A stretch of 30,284 bases of DNA from IMG/VR virus record IMGVR_UViG_3300010368_000062, positions 1 through 30,284 of that record; one strand, given 5' to 3'. The stretch comes from a virus. Under the pieces are notes generated by a model. It did not search any database, was not told the origin of the DNA, and saw nothing but the letters and a program-made list of their open reading frames with translations. The stretch's first letter is position 1; each line of letters starts with the position of its first letter. Positions 658-28,257 of this stretch are shown here, piece by piece. Made by a program: the position numbers and the translations under genes.

Positions 658-849
658 GTGGAAGCCACCGTCCCCAGGATCTACATTTCGGTTGCTGAAG
701 CCGCCGAGGCGTCTGGCCTGGGCATCGCCACAATCAAGCGCCGCCTGAGTGCAGGAGACATCCGCTCCTACAAGATCGGGCGCAGGCGGGTCATTCGGCC
801 CGCAGAACTGGAGGCCGACCTTGAGGCGCTACACGACCAAGAGCGGTAG
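658..849 (+). CDS. xis: Excisionase-like helix-turn-helix protein
   Basis: The 63-residue product is a single MerR/excisionase-type DNA-binding domain: YISVAEAAEASGLGIATIKRR gives the helix-turn-helix (residues about 9-29), followed by the wing RSYKIGRRRVIRPAELE (about 36-52). Proteins of this type bend attachment-site DNA and direct the tyrosine integrase towards excision, or act as small regulators. Its 3' end overlaps the preferred integrase start by 29 bases, the usual xis-int arrangement. The start is GTG 658 with only a weak purine run upstream. The family assignment is good; the excisionase role is inferred from size and from the adjacent integrase. Confidence 0.75.
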   Translation: MEATVPRIYISVAEAAEASGLGIATIKRRLSAGDIRSYKIGRRRVIRPAELEADLEALHDQER

Positions 850-1945
850 GCCCGTCGAGGGCGTCTACTGGAAGGACACCGCCTCTGGCCAGCAGATGTG
901 GATTGTCTTTGAAGGCCCGAAGGTGGAGGGCAAGAAGCGCAACCAGAAGTGGCGCCGGGTGCCCTCCGACAGGCTTGAAGACGCCAAGCGCCTACGCGCC
1001 GAGCTCCAGAAGCAGGCCCGCCAGGGAGGACCGACGACCGAGGCCACCGTCGTCGAGGTGCTGGATGACTACCTCGACACGCTCTCCCCTCGCCTGACGC
1101 CGCGCACCCGAGAGCAGTACGCCGTCCAGGCCGCGCACATCCGCAGGCACTTCCGGGGGCAGTTCGCCGAGGTCACGCCGTTCGATCTGGAAGCGTTCAG
1201 GAACGCCCTCCAAGCGGAGTTCTCCCCCGCCTACGTGCACAGCGTCATGTCCTGCCTGAAGCGCGTCTGCCGGCGGGCTGTGGCCCGCGACGTGATCTTC
1301 GCCAACCCCTTCGACAAGGTGCCCATCCCCGATCGGCAGAAGACGACGAGGAAGGGCAAGCCTCTCACGCCGGACGAGGTCGAGCGGTACCTGAGCGCCT
1401 GTCGGAAGATGGGGTCGCTCTGGTACGCCTTCTTCCTCTGCGTGATCGACGGCGGGCTGAGACAGGGCGAGGCGTGCGGCATGACCTGGGAGAACCTCGA
1501 CGACGAGGGCTACGAGGTCACGCACCAGATGGTCCGCAACGGCTCCCTCGAGGCCCCGAAGGACGACTCCTACGGCTACGTCGTCCTCTCCCCGCGCACC
1601 CTTGAGGCCGTGGAGACGTACCACGTCACCTGGAAGCAGGAGAATTGGGTGCCCAACCACCCGAAGAAGGGGCTGATCTGGCTGCACGAAGGCGACAGGC
1701 CGGTGATGCACTGGGTGGCCCTCCAGCGGCACAACAAGGCCCTGAAGGCGGCGAAGCTGGCCCCGCGCCGGTTCCACGACCTGCGACACACCACCGCCTC
1801 ACTCATGGCCAACGACGGCGCGACGAGCCTGCAAGTCTCCCGGCAGCTGCGGCACTCCGACCCGTCCATCACGCAGAAGGTCTACTCGCACCTGTTCGAG
1901 GAGCAGAGGCGTGGGGGGCTGCGATTGGATAACAGGATCGGATAA
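821..1945 (+). CDS. int: Tyrosine-family site-specific integrase
   Basis: This phage integrase has an N-terminal arm-binding region, a core-binding domain (about residues 75-165) and a C-terminal catalytic domain. The catalytic set is visible: Arg214 in GGLRQGE, His319 and Arg322 in HDLRH, His345 in LRHSD, and the nucleophile Tyr355 in KVYSHL. I chose TTG 821 because GGAGG lies six bases upstream. The frame is open back to GTG 749, but that extension would read through xis in another phase and gives unconvincing protein. At about 374 aa it has normal length. The gene is followed directly by GATAAC repeats, as expected for attP beside int. Role: integration into, and with Xis excision from, the host chromosome. 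Confidence 0.93.
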   Translation: MRRYTTKSGRPVEGVYWKDTASGQQMWIVFEGPKVEGKKRNQKWRRVPSDRLEDAKRLRAELQKQARQGGPTTEATVVEVLDDYLDTLSPRLTPRTREQYAVQAAHIRRHFRGQFAEVTPFDLEAFRNALQAEFSPAYVHSVMSCLKRVCRRAVARDVIFANPFDKVPIPDRQKTTRKGKPLTPDEVERYLSACRKMGSLWYAFFLCVIDGGLRQGEACGMTWENLDDEGYEVTHQMVRNGSLEAPKDDSYGYVVLSPRTLEAVETYHVTWKQENWVPNHPKKGLIWLHEGDRPVMHWVALQRHNKALKAAKLAPRRFHDLRHTTASLMANDGATSLQVSRQLRHSDPSITQKVYSHLFEEQRRGGLRLDNRIG

Positions 1946-2817: not shown

Positions 2818-3893
2818 TTGGACCGCAGCCAGGTGAGATAGTCCGCGCCCTTCTCCGGCGAGAAGAACGTCGTCACCAGATCCGGGTCGTCATCGGCCTT
2901 GGTCGGGTCGATGACCGTCATAAAGGCCGGAGAGATGTTCTGGTTGGGTAGCCCCTTCTCGCTGGCGTAGTCGTCGTAAATCTTGTAGCCAGCTACCCGC
3001 ATGGCGTGCGAGATCAGCCCGGTCGAAGGGCACTTGGTGAAGGTGTAGCCCGAGATGTGCAGATGTCCACACGTCAGGATGTGGTCCCGCCATCCCATCT
3101 GCGCTGCCTTGCTCACACCATGCACCGGGTTCCACTGCGAGTGCCCCTTGAAGTCGTGCCTTGCGTTGATGCGGACTTCCTTGCCGTTGGGGAACTGTAG
3201 ACCGATCCGCGCTCCATTGGGCTCATAGAGCCCGCCTCGGCCCTGCTGGATCATCCATTCCAGCGGATCACCGGGCGACTTCTGTGAGTTGTTGGTGTGC
3301 CAAAAGTCATGATTTCCGCCGACCAGGTAGATCCACTGCACCGACTCCACCAGCCACTCGACCAGCACCCATGCCTGCGCGGCGGTGGTTTCCTGCTTGC
3401 CATACAGCCCCGACAGACGCCCGATCCAGTTGTTCTGCATGTCGCCCACGTTGGCCCCATACAGCCCCTCGGTGTCGTGGATCAGCTGCACATGCCGCTC
3501 AAGGGCTTCGATGTCCGTCCCCGAGTCGTCTACGTGCGGGTCGCCCATATGCAAGATCCCGATGGGGCCAAGGATGTTGACCTTCACCGGGATCAGTTTG
3601 CGGGCTTCCTTGGCGACCGACTTGCGCTTGAACTCCTTCTTGCGACGTTCGATCAGTTCCGATGCACTCGGCAGGTCGTCGGGCAGGAGCGGATGCTCAA
3701 TCTCAAGCGTCTTCCGCTCGTTGTTGGCATTGCCCGGAGAACGTCCCTCCAAGGCTCCTTCGTCGCGCAGGATGCTCAACCATCGACCTACCGTCGCAGG
3801 AGCAAGGCCCGTCTCCCGTGCGACCCAGTTCCTGCCAGGGATCTTCTCGGGATGGTTCAGGCACGCCTGTAGAACGATGTCTTTGTTGTCCAT
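2814..3893 (-). CDS. Metallophosphoesterase with N-terminal helix-turn-helix
   Basis: The 359-aa protein has two parts. Residues about 5-55 form a winged-helix-like HTH (VARETGLAPATVGRWLSILRDEG). Residues about 105-335 form a calcineurin-like metallophosphoesterase with the whole metal set: D118 and H120 (GDPHVDD), D151 (GDM), N194-H195-D196 (GGNHD), His246/His251, and G276-H-L-H (CGHLH). Such enzymes use two metal ions to cut phosphodiesters or phosphomonoesters, including DNA ends and nucleotides; the substrate here is unknown. The gene follows a rho-independent terminator and has its own upstream repeats and palindrome, so it may be transcribed separately from the late genes. It is coupled to two small genes downstream. 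The domain call is firm, the biological role open. Confidence 0.85.
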   Translation of the reverse strand: MDNKDIVLQACLNHPEKIPGRNWVARETGLAPATVGRWLSILRDEGALEGRSPGNANNERKTLEIEHPLLPDDLPSASELIERRKKEFKRKSVAKEARKLIPVKVNILGPIGILHMGDPHVDDSGTDIEALERHVQLIHDTEGLYGANVGDMQNNWIGRLSGLYGKQETTAAQAWVLVEWLVESVQWIYLVGGNHDFWHTNNSQKSPGDPLEWMIQQGRGGLYEPNGARIGLQFPNGKEVRINARHDFKGHSQWNPVHGVSKAAQMGWRDHILTCGHLHISGYTFTKCPSTGLISHAMRVAGYKIYDDYASEKGLPNQNISPAFMTVIDPTKADDDPDLVTTFFSPEKGADYLTWLRSN

Positions 3894-3901
3894 GCCACCT
3901 C

Positions 3902-3915
3902 GTTACGTGCGTAAC
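3902..3915. promoter_or_regulatory. 14-bp palindrome GTTACG-TG-CGTAAC, candidate operator
   Basis: This two-arm inverted repeat lies 8 bases upstream of the phosphoesterase start codon and abuts the T-tract of the preceding terminator. Identical arms with the same two-base centre recur at 25080 and 29898, with a one-mismatch copy at 28705. Bound protein here could block both ribosome access and transcription of the phosphoesterase gene. Confidence 0.55.
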
Positions 3916-3948
3916 AAAAAAGGGACGGCAAGTCGTCTCACCGTCCCT
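3916..3948 (-). terminator. Rho-independent terminator
   Basis: On the minus strand the RNA would form AGGGACGG / CCGTCCCT, an eight-base-pair stem with a 12-base loop, followed by six U residues (3921-3916). It lies 35 bases after the lipoprotein gene's stop, ends the long late transcription unit and isolates the phosphoesterase gene. If a promoter lies at about 3950-3980, the same structure could act as an attenuator. Confidence 0.8.
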
Positions 3949-3970
3949 ATGTCGTGCATATGTCGTATAT
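3949..3970. repeat. Tandem 11-bp direct repeat upstream of the phosphoesterase gene
   Basis: ATGTCGTGCAT (3949-3959) is followed directly by ATGTCGTATAT (3960-3970), nine of eleven bases identical at one helical-turn spacing. It lies between the lipoprotein stop and the terminator, where a protein-binding site for a phosphoesterase promoter could sit. Short, so chance is possible. Confidence 0.35.
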
Positions 3971-3983
3971 AACGCCGAATGGG

Positions 3984-4436
3984 CTATCGGTCACGGGGTT
4001 CAACTTGGTAGAAGATCACCGCCCCTGAGGAAGACCGCAGGCCAACCGAATCCCGGCTCCGTATGACGGCGTAGGGACGAGAAAAGGCCGCGAGAGCGGC
4101 CCAGGTATCACTGCGGCTGTCAGCCAGTACAGCGCCCTCGCTGCGGGCGAACCAGACGCTTTCGGCGTCGTCCCATCCGCTGCCGATCCACCACGTCCCA
4201 CGCTCCCATGACACCAGCCCGAAGGGCGGCGTATGCTGCTCAAAGCGGTAGGTGGAGTCGGACAGCGCCCATGTAACGGCACTGCCGTTGATGAGCGAGG
4301 AGAGCGTATCACCGGGCTTCAGAGGCGCTGGTGCGGGCCCTGTGGGCGAGGAACAGCAGGACAGCAGCAGGCCCAGCCCCAAGAGCATCCCTGCGATGAT
4401 CCCAGAGAGGATCTTGTCCTGCTCGGTGCGGGTCAC
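3984..4436 (-). CDS. Putative lipoprotein, possible outer-membrane spanin
   Basis: The 150-aa product has a charged N-terminus (MTRTEQDK), a hydrophobic stretch (IIAGMLLGLGLLLS) and a lipobox-like LLSCC near residues 24-28, followed by a proline-rich linker (SSPTGPAPAPLKPG). This is how a lipidated envelope protein begins. The remainder is Trp-rich and beta-like (VTWALSDS, WERGTWWIGSGW). It overlaps the upstream coiled-coil membrane protein as ATGA. A TM coiled-coil protein followed by a small lipoprotein is the layout of two-component spanins, which fuse inner and outer membranes during lysis. The globular Trp-rich part is larger than usual for an o-spanin, so the role is inference; a host-interaction lipoprotein is the alternative. 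Confidence 0.6.
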   Translation of the reverse strand: MTRTEQDKILSGIIAGMLLGLGLLLSCCSSPTGPAPAPLKPGDTLSSLINGSAVTWALSDSTYRFEQHTPPFGLVSWERGTWWIGSGWDDAESVWFARSEGAVLADSRSDTWAALAAFSRPYAVIRSRDSVGLRSSSGAVIFYQVEPRDR

Positions 4437-17409: not shown

Positions 17410-18327
17410 TTAGGGATTGACGACTTCCAGCACGTCGTCGGTGATCTTGAACTCGTCCTTGCGCGAATACGACAAATACTTGTTCGCCATTGCAGCAGCG
17501 TTGTGGTGCCGCTCGGCCCACTTCCGCCCCCAAGGCTGGGGCTGATACGTCAGCAGAGCATCGACAATGTCGTCCTCTGTCCACGGAAGGTTGCGGGCTC
17601 TGCCCGAGCAGTTGTACTGCACGAACTCTCGGACGTTGTCCTCCGTAAGCCATCCGTCCGCTCTCGGAGATTCGCCTCTTGCGTCGAATACCAGAACCGC
17701 TTTCCCACAGGCCAGAGCCTCGTAGGCTCCCCTGCCGTAGGTGACAACGATGTCCGCATCGCGCATCTGCGGCGACACGTCATAGGTGGGATTGTCGTTC
17801 CAATGGACCGAATTGAACTCATACCCAGCCCTCTCACATGCCCGCTTCACCATGTCCCGCCCCATCACGTTCTTGCACAAGGACAGAACCACAGGCTTTG
17901 AATTGCTCGTCTTCTTTGGTGTGAACCGGCGAAGATCTACACCGTTGCGAACCAGATCGGCCTGAATCCCTCGCATGGCGAGAGTGGCAACGACCTCCTC
18001 CGACACGCCGACATACACGTCCCCGCCAGGCATCGCCTGCTCCATGTGGTGTGTCGGGCCGTGCTGTGTAAACACCTTGCGGCAATCCAACTTCCCAAGA
18101 AGACCCTGACAGGTCCGATGGTTGATGAAAGCCACGTCATACGCCCCGGTCGGTTCCGAGATCACCGGGACATCCAAGGCTTCGATCTGCTCAGAAAACG
18201 GGCCGTGAAGGAACGTATAGACCGTCACGTCCCGTCCTTGGTCCTTCAACGCCTTCGCCATCTCGTAGGTCCACGTCTCCGTGCCACCGATGCGAACCAA
18301 GGCGTGATTTGCCAGAAGGACTCTCAC
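17410..18327 (-). CDS. GT-B fold glycosyltransferase (GT4-like)
   Basis: The 305-aa protein starts at GTG 18327, overlapping the previous gene's TGA as GTGA. It has a GT-B N-terminal Rossmann-like beginning (MRVLLANHALVRIGGTETWT; the GG-E loop is typical) and a C-terminal donor-binding signature GRGAYEALACGKAVLVFDAR, matching the E-A-x-A-x-G-x-P-V pattern of GT4 enzymes. Such enzymes transfer a sugar from a nucleotide donor; donor and acceptor cannot be read here. With the second glycosyltransferase upstream, it lies between capsid and adaptor genes. Acceptors could be virion proteins, as reported for some actinobacteriophages, or host surface glycans. Confidence 0.8.
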   Translation of the reverse strand: MRVLLANHALVRIGGTETWTYEMAKALKDQGRDVTVYTFLHGPFSEQIEALDVPVISEPTGAYDVAFINHRTCQGLLGKLDCRKVFTQHGPTHHMEQAMPGGDVYVGVSEEVVATLAMRGIQADLVRNGVDLRRFTPKKTSNSKPVVLSLCKNVMGRDMVKRACERAGYEFNSVHWNDNPTYDVSPQMRDADIVVTYGRGAYEALACGKAVLVFDARGESPRADGWLTEDNVREFVQYNCSGRARNLPWTEDDIVDALLTYQPQPWGRKWAERHHNAAAMANKYLSYSRKDEFKITDDVLEVVNP

Positions 18328-22399: not shown

Positions 22400-24496
22400 T
22401 CATGTGACCTCCTGCGCCTCGCCCTCAACCACATTGGCGATGTTCTGCGCGTTTCCACGAACCGTGGATACCAGACCTTCTGGGGCAGGACCGGGGCTGC
22501 GAGGCCCACCGGCCATCTCCTGCTCCTGCGCCATCAACTGCTGGTGCTGCTGCATGTGCTGATCTCGCAGGCGGATGATCTGCTGAAGGCGCTGCATCAC
22601 CTGCGGGTAGATCGGCTGGCCCGTCATAGACACCTGTTGCGCCTGCTGCACCAACTGCTGGAAGGACGGGTCTTCCTCCATCTTCGCGTGAGCCTCCATA
22701 TGGCTCCGATGGTCCTGCCCTTCGATGGCGCCGGGGTCTTGCATCTGCGAGATGATGCGCTGGTTCTCCAACTGAGCCGCCCGAGTGGCCTCGGGGTTGG
22801 AGTCCGTCTTCATCACCTTCTCGACATCCACCATGTCCACGGAGGACGCCAGCATACGATCCAGTTCGCGCTGGTCGTAGTTGGAACGGTTCGCCGCTCG
22901 GTCGTAGAAGTTGAGGAACTTGTCCTGCTCAATCTGCTCGAACATCGGAGCCATCGAACCGGCCTGCACCGAGATGCGGTAGTTCCACAGGAAGTCCGAG
23001 TTCGTCAGCGCACGGGTCAGCGTGGCCGCGCCGTTCGGCGCCACGTTCACCCGGAAGTCCTCCGGCGTATACCGAGGATCGCCCATCACCTGGAAGCAGT
23101 TACGGACGATGTTCACAAACACCTCCGACACCTTGGACTGCATCCATTCGCGGTTCACAGACACCGAGGAAGCCAGCAGAGAGGCTTCTGTGGCCGTCCG
23201 AGGCGTGCCGGACGACTCAATGTCCGTCAGGCGCGTGATCTCCTCCTCATAGCCCCGTAGACGGTCCTCAAAGCGAAGCTGGTCGGCAGGCACATCGCCG
23301 TAGCGCAGTTCCTTGAAGTTGTTGGGGTCTTGAACCTCATGCCACTGCCCGTCCACACCCTTGCGGAGGTCTTCGACAAGGTTCGGGTTCTCCAACGCCT
23401 CTTCCTTGGCGACCACGCCCTGACGGGCCGTGCGCTTCAGAAGAGCCGCCTGGCGGCTCATGCTCTCGACAATGCCGTTCTGGATGTCCTCGACATACTT
23501 CAGGTGAGGCTGGGGATAGAACGAGGAAGCGTGATGGTCGAACTTCACCGGCACGAAGGGAAAGCCGCTCTCAACCAGCCAACCGGGCATTTCCACGCCC
23601 TGAGACAGGTCCAGAAGAGGGCTCCCGTCCTCGTTTATCATCGCATTCCCAAAGATGTCCACCATTTCAGGGAACGACATCTTCAAGAAGGGATGGGGCA
23701 TATCCTGAATCGCCTCGTCCACGCCGTCAGCGAACATCACCAGACGACGGCCTACGCGGTCGTGGATGCGGTCTACGAGGACGAACTCGCCGTTCTCGAC
23801 CGACTCGCGCACCGCCTTGGCTTCAAACGACTCCGTCTCGCGCCCCATGACCTCGCCAAAGCCGATGTCCTCCTGCTTGGCGACGTTCGTGGCCGCGATC
23901 TGGTTGCGGTTCTTGATCGACTTGTCGTCACGCAGCGCCTTGAGAGGAACCCACATCTTCTCTCGGATATACCGCGCATGGCCCAACTTGTGCGGCGGGC
24001 ACATCGGATCGACATGCACGAACCCCGGAGGAACGCGGCTCACAGAGGTCAGATCCTCATGCATCGCGTCGTTCGTCACATACGGGGGAATCATGTCATC
24101 CCCCGGCGGGTTGTAGTCGATGCGTAGCCAGCCAACAGAACACGTCAGAGCGTCGAAAATCGACTGATGAACGTGCGGCTTGGCGTCCATGAGGTTCAGC
24201 AGCGAGGCAGCTGCGCGTTCAAGGACGACCGTCAGTTCGGTGCCCTCGTCCTCCTCAATGGCGAAGAACAATTTGGGGTAGTTGAACGCGATGGACGCGA
24301 TGATCTGACGCACCAACGGGTAAAACCGGCTGATGCGGACCAGTTCGTCCTGGTTCAGGTCGCGGATCTGACTTGTGAAGCGCAGATCGTAGAGGTCGAT
24401 GAGTTTCTGCCACTCCTTCATCCGCTCCTTATACAAGCGGTCGAGGAGTTCCATCTCTCCACGCCAGAACTTCGTCTCTTTTCGACTAAGTGCCAT
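22400..24496 (-). CDS. Portal protein, 698 aa
   Basis: The large portal of a short-tailed phage. The N-terminal region (TKFWRGEMELLDRLYKERMK, QIRDLNQDELVRISRFYPLV) is followed by the wing/stem core (VLERAAASLLNLMDAKPHVH, SIFDALTCSVGWLRIDYNPP, then PGFVHVDPMCPPHKLGHARY) and a long stem helix (DRLRGYEEEITRLTDIESSG, with NREWMQSKVSEVFVNIVRNC). A Gln-rich helical tail covers about residues 600-680 (QQLVQQAQQVSMTGQ; QHMQQHQQLMAQEQEMAG), resembling the extended barrel of P22-type portals. ATG 24496 is used; an AAAGGAG lies about 22 bases upstream, longer than normal. It follows terL by two small genes, and forms the dodecameric DNA channel at the capsid vertex. Confidence 0.9.
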   Translation of the reverse strand: MALSRKETKFWRGEMELLDRLYKERMKEWQKLIDLYDLRFTSQIRDLNQDELVRISRFYPLVRQIIASIAFNYPKLFFAIEEDEGTELTVVLERAAASLLNLMDAKPHVHQSIFDALTCSVGWLRIDYNPPGDDMIPPYVTNDAMHEDLTSVSRVPPGFVHVDPMCPPHKLGHARYIREKMWVPLKALRDDKSIKNRNQIAATNVAKQEDIGFGEVMGRETESFEAKAVRESVENGEFVLVDRIHDRVGRRLVMFADGVDEAIQDMPHPFLKMSFPEMVDIFGNAMINEDGSPLLDLSQGVEMPGWLVESGFPFVPVKFDHHASSFYPQPHLKYVEDIQNGIVESMSRQAALLKRTARQGVVAKEEALENPNLVEDLRKGVDGQWHEVQDPNNFKELRYGDVPADQLRFEDRLRGYEEEITRLTDIESSGTPRTATEASLLASSVSVNREWMQSKVSEVFVNIVRNCFQVMGDPRYTPEDFRVNVAPNGAATLTRALTNSDFLWNYRISVQAGSMAPMFEQIEQDKFLNFYDRAANRSNYDQRELDRMLASSVDMVDVEKVMKTDSNPEATRAAQLENQRIISQMQDPGAIEGQDHRSHMEAHAKMEEDPSFQQLVQQAQQVSMTGQPIYPQVMQRLQQIIRLRDQHMQQHQQLMAQEQEMAGGPRSPGPAPEGLVSTVRGNAQNIANVVEGEAQEVT

Positions 24497-24919: not shown

Positions 24920-25132
24920 TCAATCCTCCGGCAAAATGAGCGGCGACTGAGGCTCCCGGCGGGCCACCTCCTCCAAATCGAACCCTGCATGGATCGCAAG
25001 ACGGTGGGCGGCCTCGTTGAAAGCGACCTCCTCGTCTCCGGACAGGTTCATCCCCAACCAGGGGTTGGCGGATACCGCCGTTACGAGCGTAACGTCCCGA
25101 AACCACTGATCGGCCTTATCCGTATCGTCCAA
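24920..25132 (-). CDS. Hypothetical protein, 70 aa
   Basis: TTG 25132 lies inside the end of terL (17-base overlap), seven bases after a GGAG. The acidic product (MDDTDKADQWFRDVTLVTAV; GDEEVAFNEAAHRLAIHAGF; ends ILPED) is probably helical and soluble. Its stop overlaps the alternative start of the next gene (TTGA), giving a coupled terL-small-small-portal string. The palindrome at 25080-25093 is inside this gene. No family recognised. Confidence 0.6.
   Translation of the reverse strand: MDDTDKADQWFRDVTLVTAVSANPWLGMNLSGDEEVAFNEAAHRLAIHAGFDLEEVARREPQSPLILPED
25080..25093. promoter_or_regulatory. 14-bp palindrome GTTACG-AG-CGTAAC inside a late gene
   Basis: The same arms and spacing as the sites at 3902 and 29898, but here within codons near the 5' end of the 70-aa gene, about 40 bases from its start. 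It may be an intragenic operator or a coincidence; coding constraint does not explain the full match by itself. Confidence 0.35.
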
Positions 25133-27554
25133 CTTTCGTCTCCGTCATAAGGGAACTGATGATGTTGGCACCTTCCGCCGTCTCGTCCTGCTGCTTCTTA
25201 TACCCCGGCCCGAAGACATGCACGCCCATATACCGCAAGGCGTCGGCCAAGTGGTCGTTGGAGTCCGTATCCACGTCCTCGGGGCGGCGTTTGTCTCTGG
25301 GAAGCTGGGGCATCTGCTCAATCAGGTTCGGACACCACTCCTTCCAGACCTTCAGCTTGCCCTTCGCCATCGCATCGCGCAGGATGCGCCATCCGTTCAC
25401 GCGGTTGTTGTTGCCGGGCTTCAGATACACGCCATGTTCGCGGAAGATCCCCGACGCGGACTGCACACGCGCCTCTGCCGGGACTCCTGAGCCCTTGGAG
25501 AGGCGACGACGGGTGAACATCGACGGGTCAGCGAGGTTCATGTAGGGACGGCGGTTCGTGAAGGGAAAGTCCTTCATCATCGCCGCGATCTCCTCGGCGT
25601 GTTCCGAGGCCGCACGGTCGCCTACGTAGTATTCGTTGATCAACCAGAGGTTCTTGTCGTAGTCCATCGCCCCCATAACCCATGCGGTCGGGGACGCCTC
25701 GCCGTAGTCCAACCCCGAGAACAGCGGCCAGGAGTCGGGAATCTCAAACGAATCGGCCAGTTCGACCTTGGACCACGCCCCCGCGAAGAACGCACCGACC
25801 AGAGCCGTCCAATCGCCCTCCAACCACGCCTTCACAAGCTCGTCGTCGCCCACGCCATGCAGGCGGTTCACGTAGTTGGGGTCGGAATCCAGCAGGATCT
25901 TGTTGTCCTGCACGCGGGAGGGAATGAACATCCGCCGCATGGCGGTCTTCGGGTCCAGAAGCGGCTTCGCGTCACGATACGTGGTCTGATGCGAGGGGAT
26001 GGTGAAGTAGTCCTGCACCCATCCGTGACCCACGCCGCCGGGGTTGCCCGTGGAACGGACCCGCTTGCGCTTGGCCGGGCCGCGCAGACGGCTCAACATG
26101 CGCTGATAACACGCCGCATCGGGCCACTCCGGCAGTTCGTCCCACCCGATCCATGAAAAACTGTGGCCGATGTACTTCGTGAAGTCGAACACGCTCTCAA
26201 AGTGCCGCAATCGAAGGCAGGCACCGTTCGGCCAGCGCCATTCCTTCTTGCCTTCCAGCCACTTCGCCCCCGTGCGGGGGTAAAACTCGTGAGAGCGGTG
26301 GACAAGGTCGTCCAGGGCAGGGAACGTCTGGCGAAACAACACCCCCTGCCATGAACTGCCTTGGTCCACGTCCATCAGGAAGTCGCCCAGGAGGAAGTCG
26401 CTGTTGTGCGTGACGATGAAGTCGTTGGTGATGTAGAGCCCGGACGGATGGGAGACGGTGATACACCGCCCCTCGATCTCCCCCACCTCCTCTACCGCCA
26501 CGACTCTTCGATACAGATTGCCGCTATCGTCACAACGAGATCTCTTCCGCTCCAACCGGAAAGCGTCCCGGTCGTTGGGAAGCTTGACATACGCCGTAAA
26601 CGCCCTCTGGCCTCCCTTTCCGTCGCATGTCGGGATTCGGTCGGTGACCGTCGCAGTACCACCCAGCGATTGAACGAGGTGGACAACGCCCTCCATTAGA
26701 CGATGTGAGATCGACGTGAAATACAACTGACCACGGCTGTCCGACGTGCCGTCCGTGTCCATCAAGCCCTGCAACAAGGCCAACCGGTCCTCCGGCGAGG
26801 CCCAGAGATACTGGTGGGGGACGAACTTGTCGTGCGCCTTGGTTCCCATGAGGCCCGCTCGTTCCAACTGGACCTCCCAGTGCTTCCTGTCATCCCCTAT
26901 CAGCCCGAACGCGTACCCATCCCAATCCCGCATCTCCGGCCAATGCCGGAGGATGTGCTCTGTGTCTTCCGAGGTAAGACGCACGCCGGACGGCCCGGCA
27001 TGGCCATCGCCCAACCACAGCCCCAACTGATACGGGTCCAAGAGAATCGGATGTCTGGACTGAACATTGAAGGGCTGCGGCTCACAGACAGGTATACATG
27101 GCCAGTTCGGACGATGCCCCCGCGCCTGCTGGTCCTGAGCAGTCTTGAGCCACTGAGCAAGTTCCCGCGTCTCAACCACTTCCGCCGCATCAGAGCCAAA
27201 GTCCGAGCTGCCCCGAGGGCGCTTCTTGCGCTTTCTTGAACGCCAAGCCAACCACAGATGGTCCCAAGCCACCGTCGTTGACGTTCCGTCATGGAACGTC
27301 ACTTTTACCCCGGTTATTCTCTGCCACGGATGCAACTGAATGATCCGGCACGTTGTCCCGTCGGGAGCACTGATCCGAGATCCAACATCCAACTCCTCGC
27401 AGGTCCGCCATCCAAACGGCGTGAGAACAGGCGCTCCGCGCTGAAGGATTTTCCCTCCACCAGCGGCACCGCCGTAGAACAACTCCTCCACAAACGATGC
27501 CCGTATTGCCGCCTCCTGCGGCCCCTGCTGGGGACTCCACGCGACCTCCGTCAA
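25116..27554 (-). CDS. terL: Large terminase subunit precursor with intein
   Basis: The start TTG 27554 overlaps terS as TTGA. Residues 1-35 and 385-812 are the terminase, about 463 aa once the 349-aa intein is removed. The Walker A loop GGAAGGGK|SD is split by the intein between Lys35 and Ser385. Walker B is FSWIGWDE (about residues 466-473), the coupling motif is RSTGNPGG, and the C-terminal nuclease carries the first Asp in SGLDYGEASPTAW, then ADPSMF and DSNDHLADALRYM. The protein drives ATP-powered DNA packaging and cuts concatemers. Without splicing the ATPase could not bind ATP. The ORF is intact throughout. Confidence 0.95.
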   Translation of the reverse strand: MTEVAWSPQQGPQEAAIRASFVEELFYGGAAGGGKILQRGAPVLTPFGWRTCEELDVGSRISAPDGTTCRIIQLHPWQRITGVKVTFHDGTSTTVAWDHLWLAWRSRKRKKRPRGSSDFGSDAAEVVETRELAQWLKTAQDQQARGHRPNWPCIPVCEPQPFNVQSRHPILLDPYQLGLWLGDGHAGPSGVRLTSEDTEHILRHWPEMRDWDGYAFGLIGDDRKHWEVQLERAGLMGTKAHDKFVPHQYLWASPEDRLALLQGLMDTDGTSDSRGQLYFTSISHRLMEGVVHLVQSLGGTATVTDRIPTCDGKGGQRAFTAYVKLPNDRDAFRLERKRSRCDDSGNLYRRVVAVEEVGEIEGRCITVSHPSGLYITNDFIVTHNSDFLLGDFLMDVDQGSSWQGVLFRQTFPALDDLVHRSHEFYPRTGAKWLEGKKEWRWPNGACLRLRHFESVFDFTKYIGHSFSWIGWDELPEWPDAACYQRMLSRLRGPAKRKRVRSTGNPGGVGHGWVQDYFTIPSHQTTYRDAKPLLDPKTAMRRMFIPSRVQDNKILLDSDPNYVNRLHGVGDDELVKAWLEGDWTALVGAFFAGAWSKVELADSFEIPDSWPLFSGLDYGEASPTAWVMGAMDYDKNLWLINEYYVGDRAASEHAEEIAAMMKDFPFTNRRPYMNLADPSMFTRRRLSKGSGVPAEARVQSASGIFREHGVYLKPGNNNRVNGWRILRDAMAKGKLKVWKEWCPNLIEQMPQLPRDKRRPEDVDTDSNDHLADALRYMGVHVFGPGYKKQQDETAEGANIISSLMTETKVGRYG
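26403..27449 (-). mobile_element. Intein with LAGLIDADG homing endonuclease, class 3 type
   Basis: The intein covers precursor residues 36-384. It begins ILQRGAPVLTPFG (block A, with Ile where class 1 inteins have Cys or Ser) and ends FIVTHN|S, with catalytic His-Asn and Ser at +1. Block B shows DHLW with Trp101, block F GRCITV with Cys364, and block G Thr382, matching the Trp-Cys-Thr set of class 3 inteins, in which a block F cysteine replaces the first nucleophile. The middle carries two LAGLIDADG-like motifs, LGLWLGDGH (about 177-185) and LLQGLMDTDG (260-269), both with the acidic residue. So it probably self-splices and its DNA homes into uninterrupted terL genes. Confidence 0.9.
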
Positions 27555-27928
27555 GCGGCGGCCTCATTCTGGTCCATCCACTCCTCCTCCGACTCCGCAC
27601 GCGCCGGAGCCACCACCTGAGCGAAACTCCCGTCAGTAGAGATCTCCTGCTTCGTGCCCCACCCCCGATCCCGCGCAAAGCGGTCCAGCCACGCCTGAAG
27701 CGCCCGTAGATCCTTCTTCCGCAGCGCCTCGGAGTAGAACGTGCTTTCCGCGTCGTCCTTCATCACCTCCAAGACATCCGCCTTGAACCGCTTCAAGACC
27801 TCCGACTTGGAGATCCGCTTCGCCAAAGTGTCACGCCGGATGCCCAGCATCTGAGCCGCCGCCGTGACGTTCCCCTGCGCGTCCTGTATCGCCTTCTTCA
27901 CTTCTTCGTCTGTGTTGCCGATCTGCAT
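27551..27928 (-). CDS. terS: Small terminase subunit
   Basis: I use ATG 27928 (125 aa), 31 bases inside the end of the preceding gene; the longer frame from about 28000 is less likely. The N-terminal third is a helix-turn-helix (GNVTAAAQMLGIRRDTLAKR) of the kind that binds packaging-start DNA. The middle is a helical oligomerisation region (FKADVLEVMKDDAESTFYSE, ALRKKDLRALQAWLDRFARD). The acidic C-terminus (ESEEEWMDQNEAAA) would contact the large subunit. The gene is coupled to terL. Family-level identification is by pattern and location. Confidence 0.8.
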   Translation of the reverse strand: MQIGNTDEEVKKAIQDAQGNVTAAAQMLGIRRDTLAKRISKSEVLKRFKADVLEVMKDDAESTFYSEALRKKDLRALQAWLDRFARDRGWGTKQEISTDGSFAQVVAPARAESEEEWMDQNEAAA

Positions 27929-28257
27929 TCCGTACACCCTCTGATCACGTTTGCTACGACCGCATCGCCCCCGTCCTTGGGCGATACCCGATACCACCAC
28001 CGGCTCTCACCGCCGCACTCGCACGCCGCCAGGCCCAGCAAGTCGTCCGCCGTGAGCCGGTTGTAACTCCCATACCTCTTCGCCATCGTGTTCAACACTC
28101 CCGCCCGATTCGCCGCATACCCCCGCTCCGTCCTCTGATACGCCCGAATCTTCTCCAACCGCTCCCTCGACGGCTTCTTCCGCCTTACACGCGCCCGCCA
28201 GGCGATCTTCCGCCGGTTCTTCCGGTAGTAGAGCCGCTGATACTCCGTCCATGCCAT
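27898..28257 (-). CDS. Small zinc-ribbon protein, HNH-endonuclease-like, possibly inactive
   Basis: The 119-aa product has a very basic N-terminal half (YYRKNRRKIAWRARVRRKKP), then a helix (SYNRLTADDLLGLAA) leading into CECGG and, 29 residues later, CTEC. Layout (basic helical leader, LL-L--C-CGG, beta segment, N-V-RGC--C) matches short phage HNH nucleases usually encoded beside terS. Where those carry a D-H pair, this one reads ESRWWYRVSPKDGGDAVVAN, with no catalytic His. It may be a DNA-binding derivative. It is the first late gene; ATG 28257 has a weak RBS. Confidence 0.6.
   Translation of the reverse strand: MAWTEYQRLYYRKNRRKIAWRARVRRKKPSRERLEKIRAYQRTERGYAANRAGVLNTMAKRYGSYNRLTADDLLGLAACECGGESRWWYRVSPKDGGDAVVANVIRGCTECRSATQTKK

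Follow-up and report, generated by a model that had tools for sequence, protein, structure and literature searches.

Evidence for a mobile class 3 intein carrying a LAGLIDADG homing endonuclease at the Walker A Lys-Ser junction of a phage terminase large subunit

We identified an intein that splits the gene for the terminase large subunit (TerL) in a viral DNA stretch of 30,284 nucleotides (the window, meaning the whole stretch analysed). It is very probably a mobile class 3 intein that carries a LAGLIDADG homing endonuclease and lies at the Lys/Ser junction of the TerL Walker A motif. The intein is real and well preserved, and its kind and insertion site are already known in other phages. Its features are listed below, with residues numbered on the TerL precursor.

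25116..27554, minus strand: TerL precursor gene, 812 aa, TTG start (PHROGs, Pfam)
27450..27554, minus strand: N-extein, 35 aa, with Walker A GGAAGGGK at its end (flanks match intein-free TerLs)
27450-27473, minus strand: Walker A GGAAGGGK, the last residues of the N-extein, Lys35 being final
26403..27449, minus strand: class 3 intein with LAGLIDADG homing endonuclease, 349 aa, TerL residues 36-384
27447..27449, minus strand: intein residue 1 (A:1), Ile36, non-nucleophilic
27258..27260, minus strand: block B His99 (B:10), His position of the catalytic triad (alignment)
27252..27254, minus strand: block B Trp101 (B:12), W of the WCT triplet (alignment to 6bs8/6rix)
26751..27008, minus strand: endonuclease core, Asp183, Lys243 and Asp266/Asp268 (Pfam, alignment, profile)
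26463..26465, minus strand: block F Cys364 (F:4), predicted initiating nucleophile, C of WCT (alignment)
26403..26411, minus strand: block G THN, Thr382-His383-Asn384, T of WCT (G:5) and terminal Asn
26400..26402, minus strand: +1 nucleophile Ser385, the Walker A Ser after splicing
25116..26402, minus strand: C-extein, 428 aa, remainder of the TerL ATPase and nuclease

The open reading frame at 25116-27554 was read through 812 codons without a stop or frameshift, and its TTG start overlapped the stop codon of ORF 27551-28000, which lies upstream. The C-extein matched the terminase large subunit in PHROGs (E 4e-22) and Terminase_6C in Pfam, and tblastn searches with it returned many phage TerLs. 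A tyrosine integrase gene was also present in the window (749-1945, plus strand; Pfam Phage_integrase, 1.6e-18), suggesting that the phage is probably temperate. In addition, a glycosyltransferase family 4-like N-terminal match was observed among the structural genes (17410-18327, minus strand).

The intein junctions could be fixed because intein-free TerLs read through the site. In those nearest to the window TerL (63-66% identity), the site GGGK/S was uninterrupted (the slash marks the insertion point). For example, in the intein-free TerL of L032, which belongs to the same lineage, both flanks were near-matching (FYGGAAGGGK/SDFLLGDFLMD), with VAWKPQEGPQEAAIRASCFDELFYGGAAGGGK/SDFLLGDFLMD in L032 versus VAWSPQQGPQEAAIRASFVEELFYGGAAGGGK[349 aa]SDFLLGDFLMD in the window. 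We further inspected the upstream flanks of 79 TerL relatives in IMG/VR and found an insert at this site in none; in nearly all of them the P-loop Gly-Lys ran directly into Ser or Thr, and in three (L036, L037 and L092) the flank was unreadable in that frame. The preliminary description had placed the intein at 26403-27449, between the Walker A Lys and Ser. These coordinates proved exact, corresponding to residues 36-384 of the unbroken 812-aa ORF, and the empty-site comparison bore out an insertion between Lys35 and Ser385 (GGAAGGGK/S).

Alignment placed Trp101, Cys364 and Thr382 in register with the WCT residues of two class 3 inteins of known structure, M. smegmatis DnaB intein 1 (6bs8) and M. 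chimaera DnaB1 (6rix), and the THN of the window intein aligned with the THN of both. The F:4 Cys is Cys329 in intein numbering and Cys364 in TerL. Positions B:12, F:4 and G:5 are those of the published class 3 triplet (PMC5050341; PMC7891396). His99, the penultimate His383, the terminal Asn384 and the +1 Ser385 were present as well, completing the class 3 residues. When 34 inteins, taken from viral contigs and deposited phages, were aligned, Cys never occurred at residue 1, and six positions were invariant, namely His and Trp in block B, Cys in block F and Thr-His-Asn in block G; many relatives had been fetched with patterns that included YITNDFIV or WDHLWLAW, which inflates the conservation of blocks B and G in parts, yet the equally invariant F:4 Cys lies outside every fetching pattern. 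At block B position 7 the window intein has Ala, whereas the DxxH motif of M. smegmatis DnaBi1 has Asp there; this difference is not disqualifying because the position varies widely across the family. The earlier view that the intein lacks an N-terminal Cys/Ser but keeps the Trp, Cys and Thr set agreed with the alignment: residue 1, at the boundary set by the intein-free TerLs, is Ile, and Cys364 and Trp101 occupy the class 3 positions. In two relatives located in helicase-like P-loops (L020, 2980-4035; L119, Pseudomonas phage PS119XW, ~1498-2532), residue 1 was Ser together with the full W, C and T, so that residue 1 alone would misclassify these inteins.

The two LAGLIDADG motifs noted earlier were both found with intact acidic residues: LGLWLGDG (residues 177-184), carrying Asp183, and LQGLMDTDG (residues 261-269), carrying Asp266/Asp268. 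The block D Lys is Lys243, and in intein numbering the conserved endonuclease residues are Asp148, Asp231, Asp233 and Lys208. Pfam matches within residues 36-384 were LAGLIDADG_3 (3.8e-9) and Hom_end (1.1e-7). One relative of only 224 aa (L030, 2986-3657) had no LAGLIDADG acidic residues in the alignment, suggesting a probable loss of the endonuclease.

An AlphaFold2 model computed from the family alignment was confident (mean pLDDT 90.5, pTM 0.89), and in this model the splicing part is predicted to adopt the Hint fold. In VIA-align, the full-length model superposed on PI-SceI (1ef0; Z 26.9, rmsd 3.4, 324 aligned), while its splicing part superposed on 6bs8 (chain 6bs8_C; Z 19.1, rmsd 1.4, 123 aligned) as well as on 6rix (Z 18.7), with Foldseek in agreement. 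The family profile detected PI-SceI (3e-19) and a gp41-1 intein variant engineered to carry WCT (7e-20) in the PDB. The intein identity is not due to chance, given the LAGLIDADG_3 match, the PDB profile match at 7e-20 and the 29 related loci detected in viral contigs.

The intein was acquired by horizontal transfer, since the closest full-length intein found, in L002, was 60% identical but resided in a TerL only 28% identical to that of the window. In the intein tree the window and L002 were paired (support 100/99), whereas in the TerL tree the window grouped with the intein-free L031-L033 (support 100/99), far from L002. Two relatives without the intein, L031 and L032, have counterparts of the neighbouring ORF 22400-24496 at 62% identity, and no match to this ORF was found in the L003 record. 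Third-position GC content (GC3) was 71% in the intein versus 82% in the C-extein, a weak sign of foreign origin. Against L002, the intein showed a dN of 0.38 and a dS of ~1.9, suggesting maintenance as a protein under purifying selection, although this dS is near saturation and the estimate is rough. A scan of bacterial genomes with the intein family yielded only five distant relatives (26-35%) and no bacterial source. The same intein family (L002-L030) was observed in the P-loops of several unrelated ATPases, nearly always at Lys/Ser or Lys/Thr; judged by eye, the hosts were different TerL lineages and SNF2-like and DnaB-like helicases. In L014 and L015 (~3001-3999), the insertion was just before the P-loop SGKT, three residues upstream of the usual Lys/Ser or Lys/Thr.

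On the model of class 3 inteins that have been characterised (PMC5222942; PMC7664689), Cys364 (F:4), helped by His99 and Thr382, would attack the Lys35-Ile36 bond to give a branched thioester at block F. The N-extein would then pass on to Ser385, cyclisation of Asn384 would release the intein, and an ester-to-peptide shift would rebuild GGAAGGGKS and, with it, a functional packaging ATPase. The endonuclease is expected to cut the intein-free P-loop DNA of co-infecting phages, into which the intein gene would be copied. Two mycobacteriophage TerL inteins cleaved empty partner genes in vitro (PMC5050341).

It had also been proposed that splicing serves as a timing switch, i.e., that delayed or conditional splicing times the activation of the terminase and hence packaging. 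With the intein in the ATP-binding loop, we infer on sound grounds that TerL activity depends on splicing and that the unspliced precursor would be inactive, without ATPase activity, and the class 3 intein in the DnaB P-loop of M. smegmatis is redox-sensitive (PMC6195587). However, the switch found no support in our analysis. In a published reporter assay, splicing was fast for five TerL or TerL-like inteins from mycobacteriophages (PMC5050341), and the redox-partner Cys is absent: the M. smegmatis intein pairs Cys48 with the F:4 Cys (PMC6195587), but Cys48 of 6bs8 aligns with Gly82 of TerL (intein Gly47), and a search across the intein family for conserved cysteines besides the F:4 Cys found none. 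The nearest TerLs do without the intein, which argues against a conserved timing role. We therefore regard a regulatory switch as very unlikely. The intein, being mobile, with its endonuclease intact and absent from the nearest TerLs, follows the pattern of an ordinary homing element. A broader speculation, which we consider distinctly unlikely, is that the endonuclease of this intein clade tolerates P-loop DNA generally, which would let the clade move from one unrelated phage ATPase to another (several TerL lineages as well as helicase-like proteins), and that the copy in TerL splices in step with the infection cycle.

Intein pseudogenes exist, as exemplified by Arth_1007 of Arthrobacter (PMC3196547), and a decayed, non-splicing intein would leave TerL dead in a pseudogene or defective prophage. 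Such decay is highly improbable here, and we rejected it: all catalytic and endonuclease residues were kept, neither a stop nor a frameshift interrupts the gene, dN was well below dS, and the AlphaFold2 fold was full-length and confident. Mis-assignment of a class 1 or class 2 intein was also considered, as THN and a block B His are also features of certain class 1 inteins, gp41-1 among them (PMC7664689). With neither Cys nor Ser at residue 1, class 1 is ruled out, and the F:4 Cys and B:12 Trp are in register with the class 3 structures and do not vary across the family; a class 1 or class 2 reading was rejected on these three positions and is extremely improbable. A class 3 homing intein thus remains our explanation.

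The mycobacteriophage TerL inteins (PMC5050341) have TerL, the Walker A loop and a LAGLIDADG endonuclease in common with the window intein, and those at the P-loop have been described since at least 2016 (Kelley et al. 2016, PMC5050341). Their TerL1-a site is the P-loop K/T, from which TerL1-b is displaced by a single residue (Kelley et al. 2016, PMC5050341). Baka belongs to TerL1-b (PMC5050341), and we placed Goku at a TerL1-a-type K/T site from its sequence. The Goku and Baka inteins contain W, H, C, T, H and N and have no Cys1, as in the window. However, they were only 37% and 33% identical to the window intein, respectively (TerLs, 22-23%), and formed a separate, well-supported part of the intein tree (100/100); the +1 residue is Ser in the window versus Thr in Goku. 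The TerL intein of Thiohalocapsa phage LS06-2018-MD04 also resembled the window intein (GGAAGGGK/S site, WCT set and full-length endonuclease), with 37% identity between the inteins and 27% between the TerLs. L003 (IMGVR_UViG_3300043184_000041, the same as L002) had the same GGAAGGGK/S site. The M. smegmatis DnaB intein likewise lies at a P-loop (PMC6195587), and 6bs8 and 6rix share the splicing fold, WCT and +1 Ser with the window intein. Unlike the latter, both are mini-inteins without an endonuclease, and the window intein has neither the B:7 Asp nor the redox Cys48 that 6bs8 contains.

The class 3 set at the TerL P-loop Lys/Ser or Lys/Thr was present in several deposited phages, including Thiohalocapsa MD04, Gordonia phage Sampson, mycobacteriophage Goku, coliphage kvi, Clavibacter phage CMP1, RaK2, RcKickapoo and Vibrio 489E54. 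A 2020 catalogue listed 1701 class 3 inteins, 82.5% of which had LAGLIDADG motifs (PMC7891396). We rejected the idea that a class 3 intein in the TerL Walker A motif is a novel combination, as deposited phages already show it. The Thiohalocapsa MD04 record names its intein-bearing TerL gene DarB-like, and intein-bearing terminase or helicase genes in NC_054727.1, NC_070882.1 and OP947166.1 were annotated as 'DarB-like antirestriction', a label that was apparently carried over via the intein.

The window intein offers a clean example of how class 3 inteins spread from one phage terminase P-loop to another, with exact empty sites and a clear conflict between trees. Together with the empty sites of L031-L033, it forms a usable pair for testing endonuclease tolerance. 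It also provides a further class 3 scaffold, and no current view of these inteins is changed by it.
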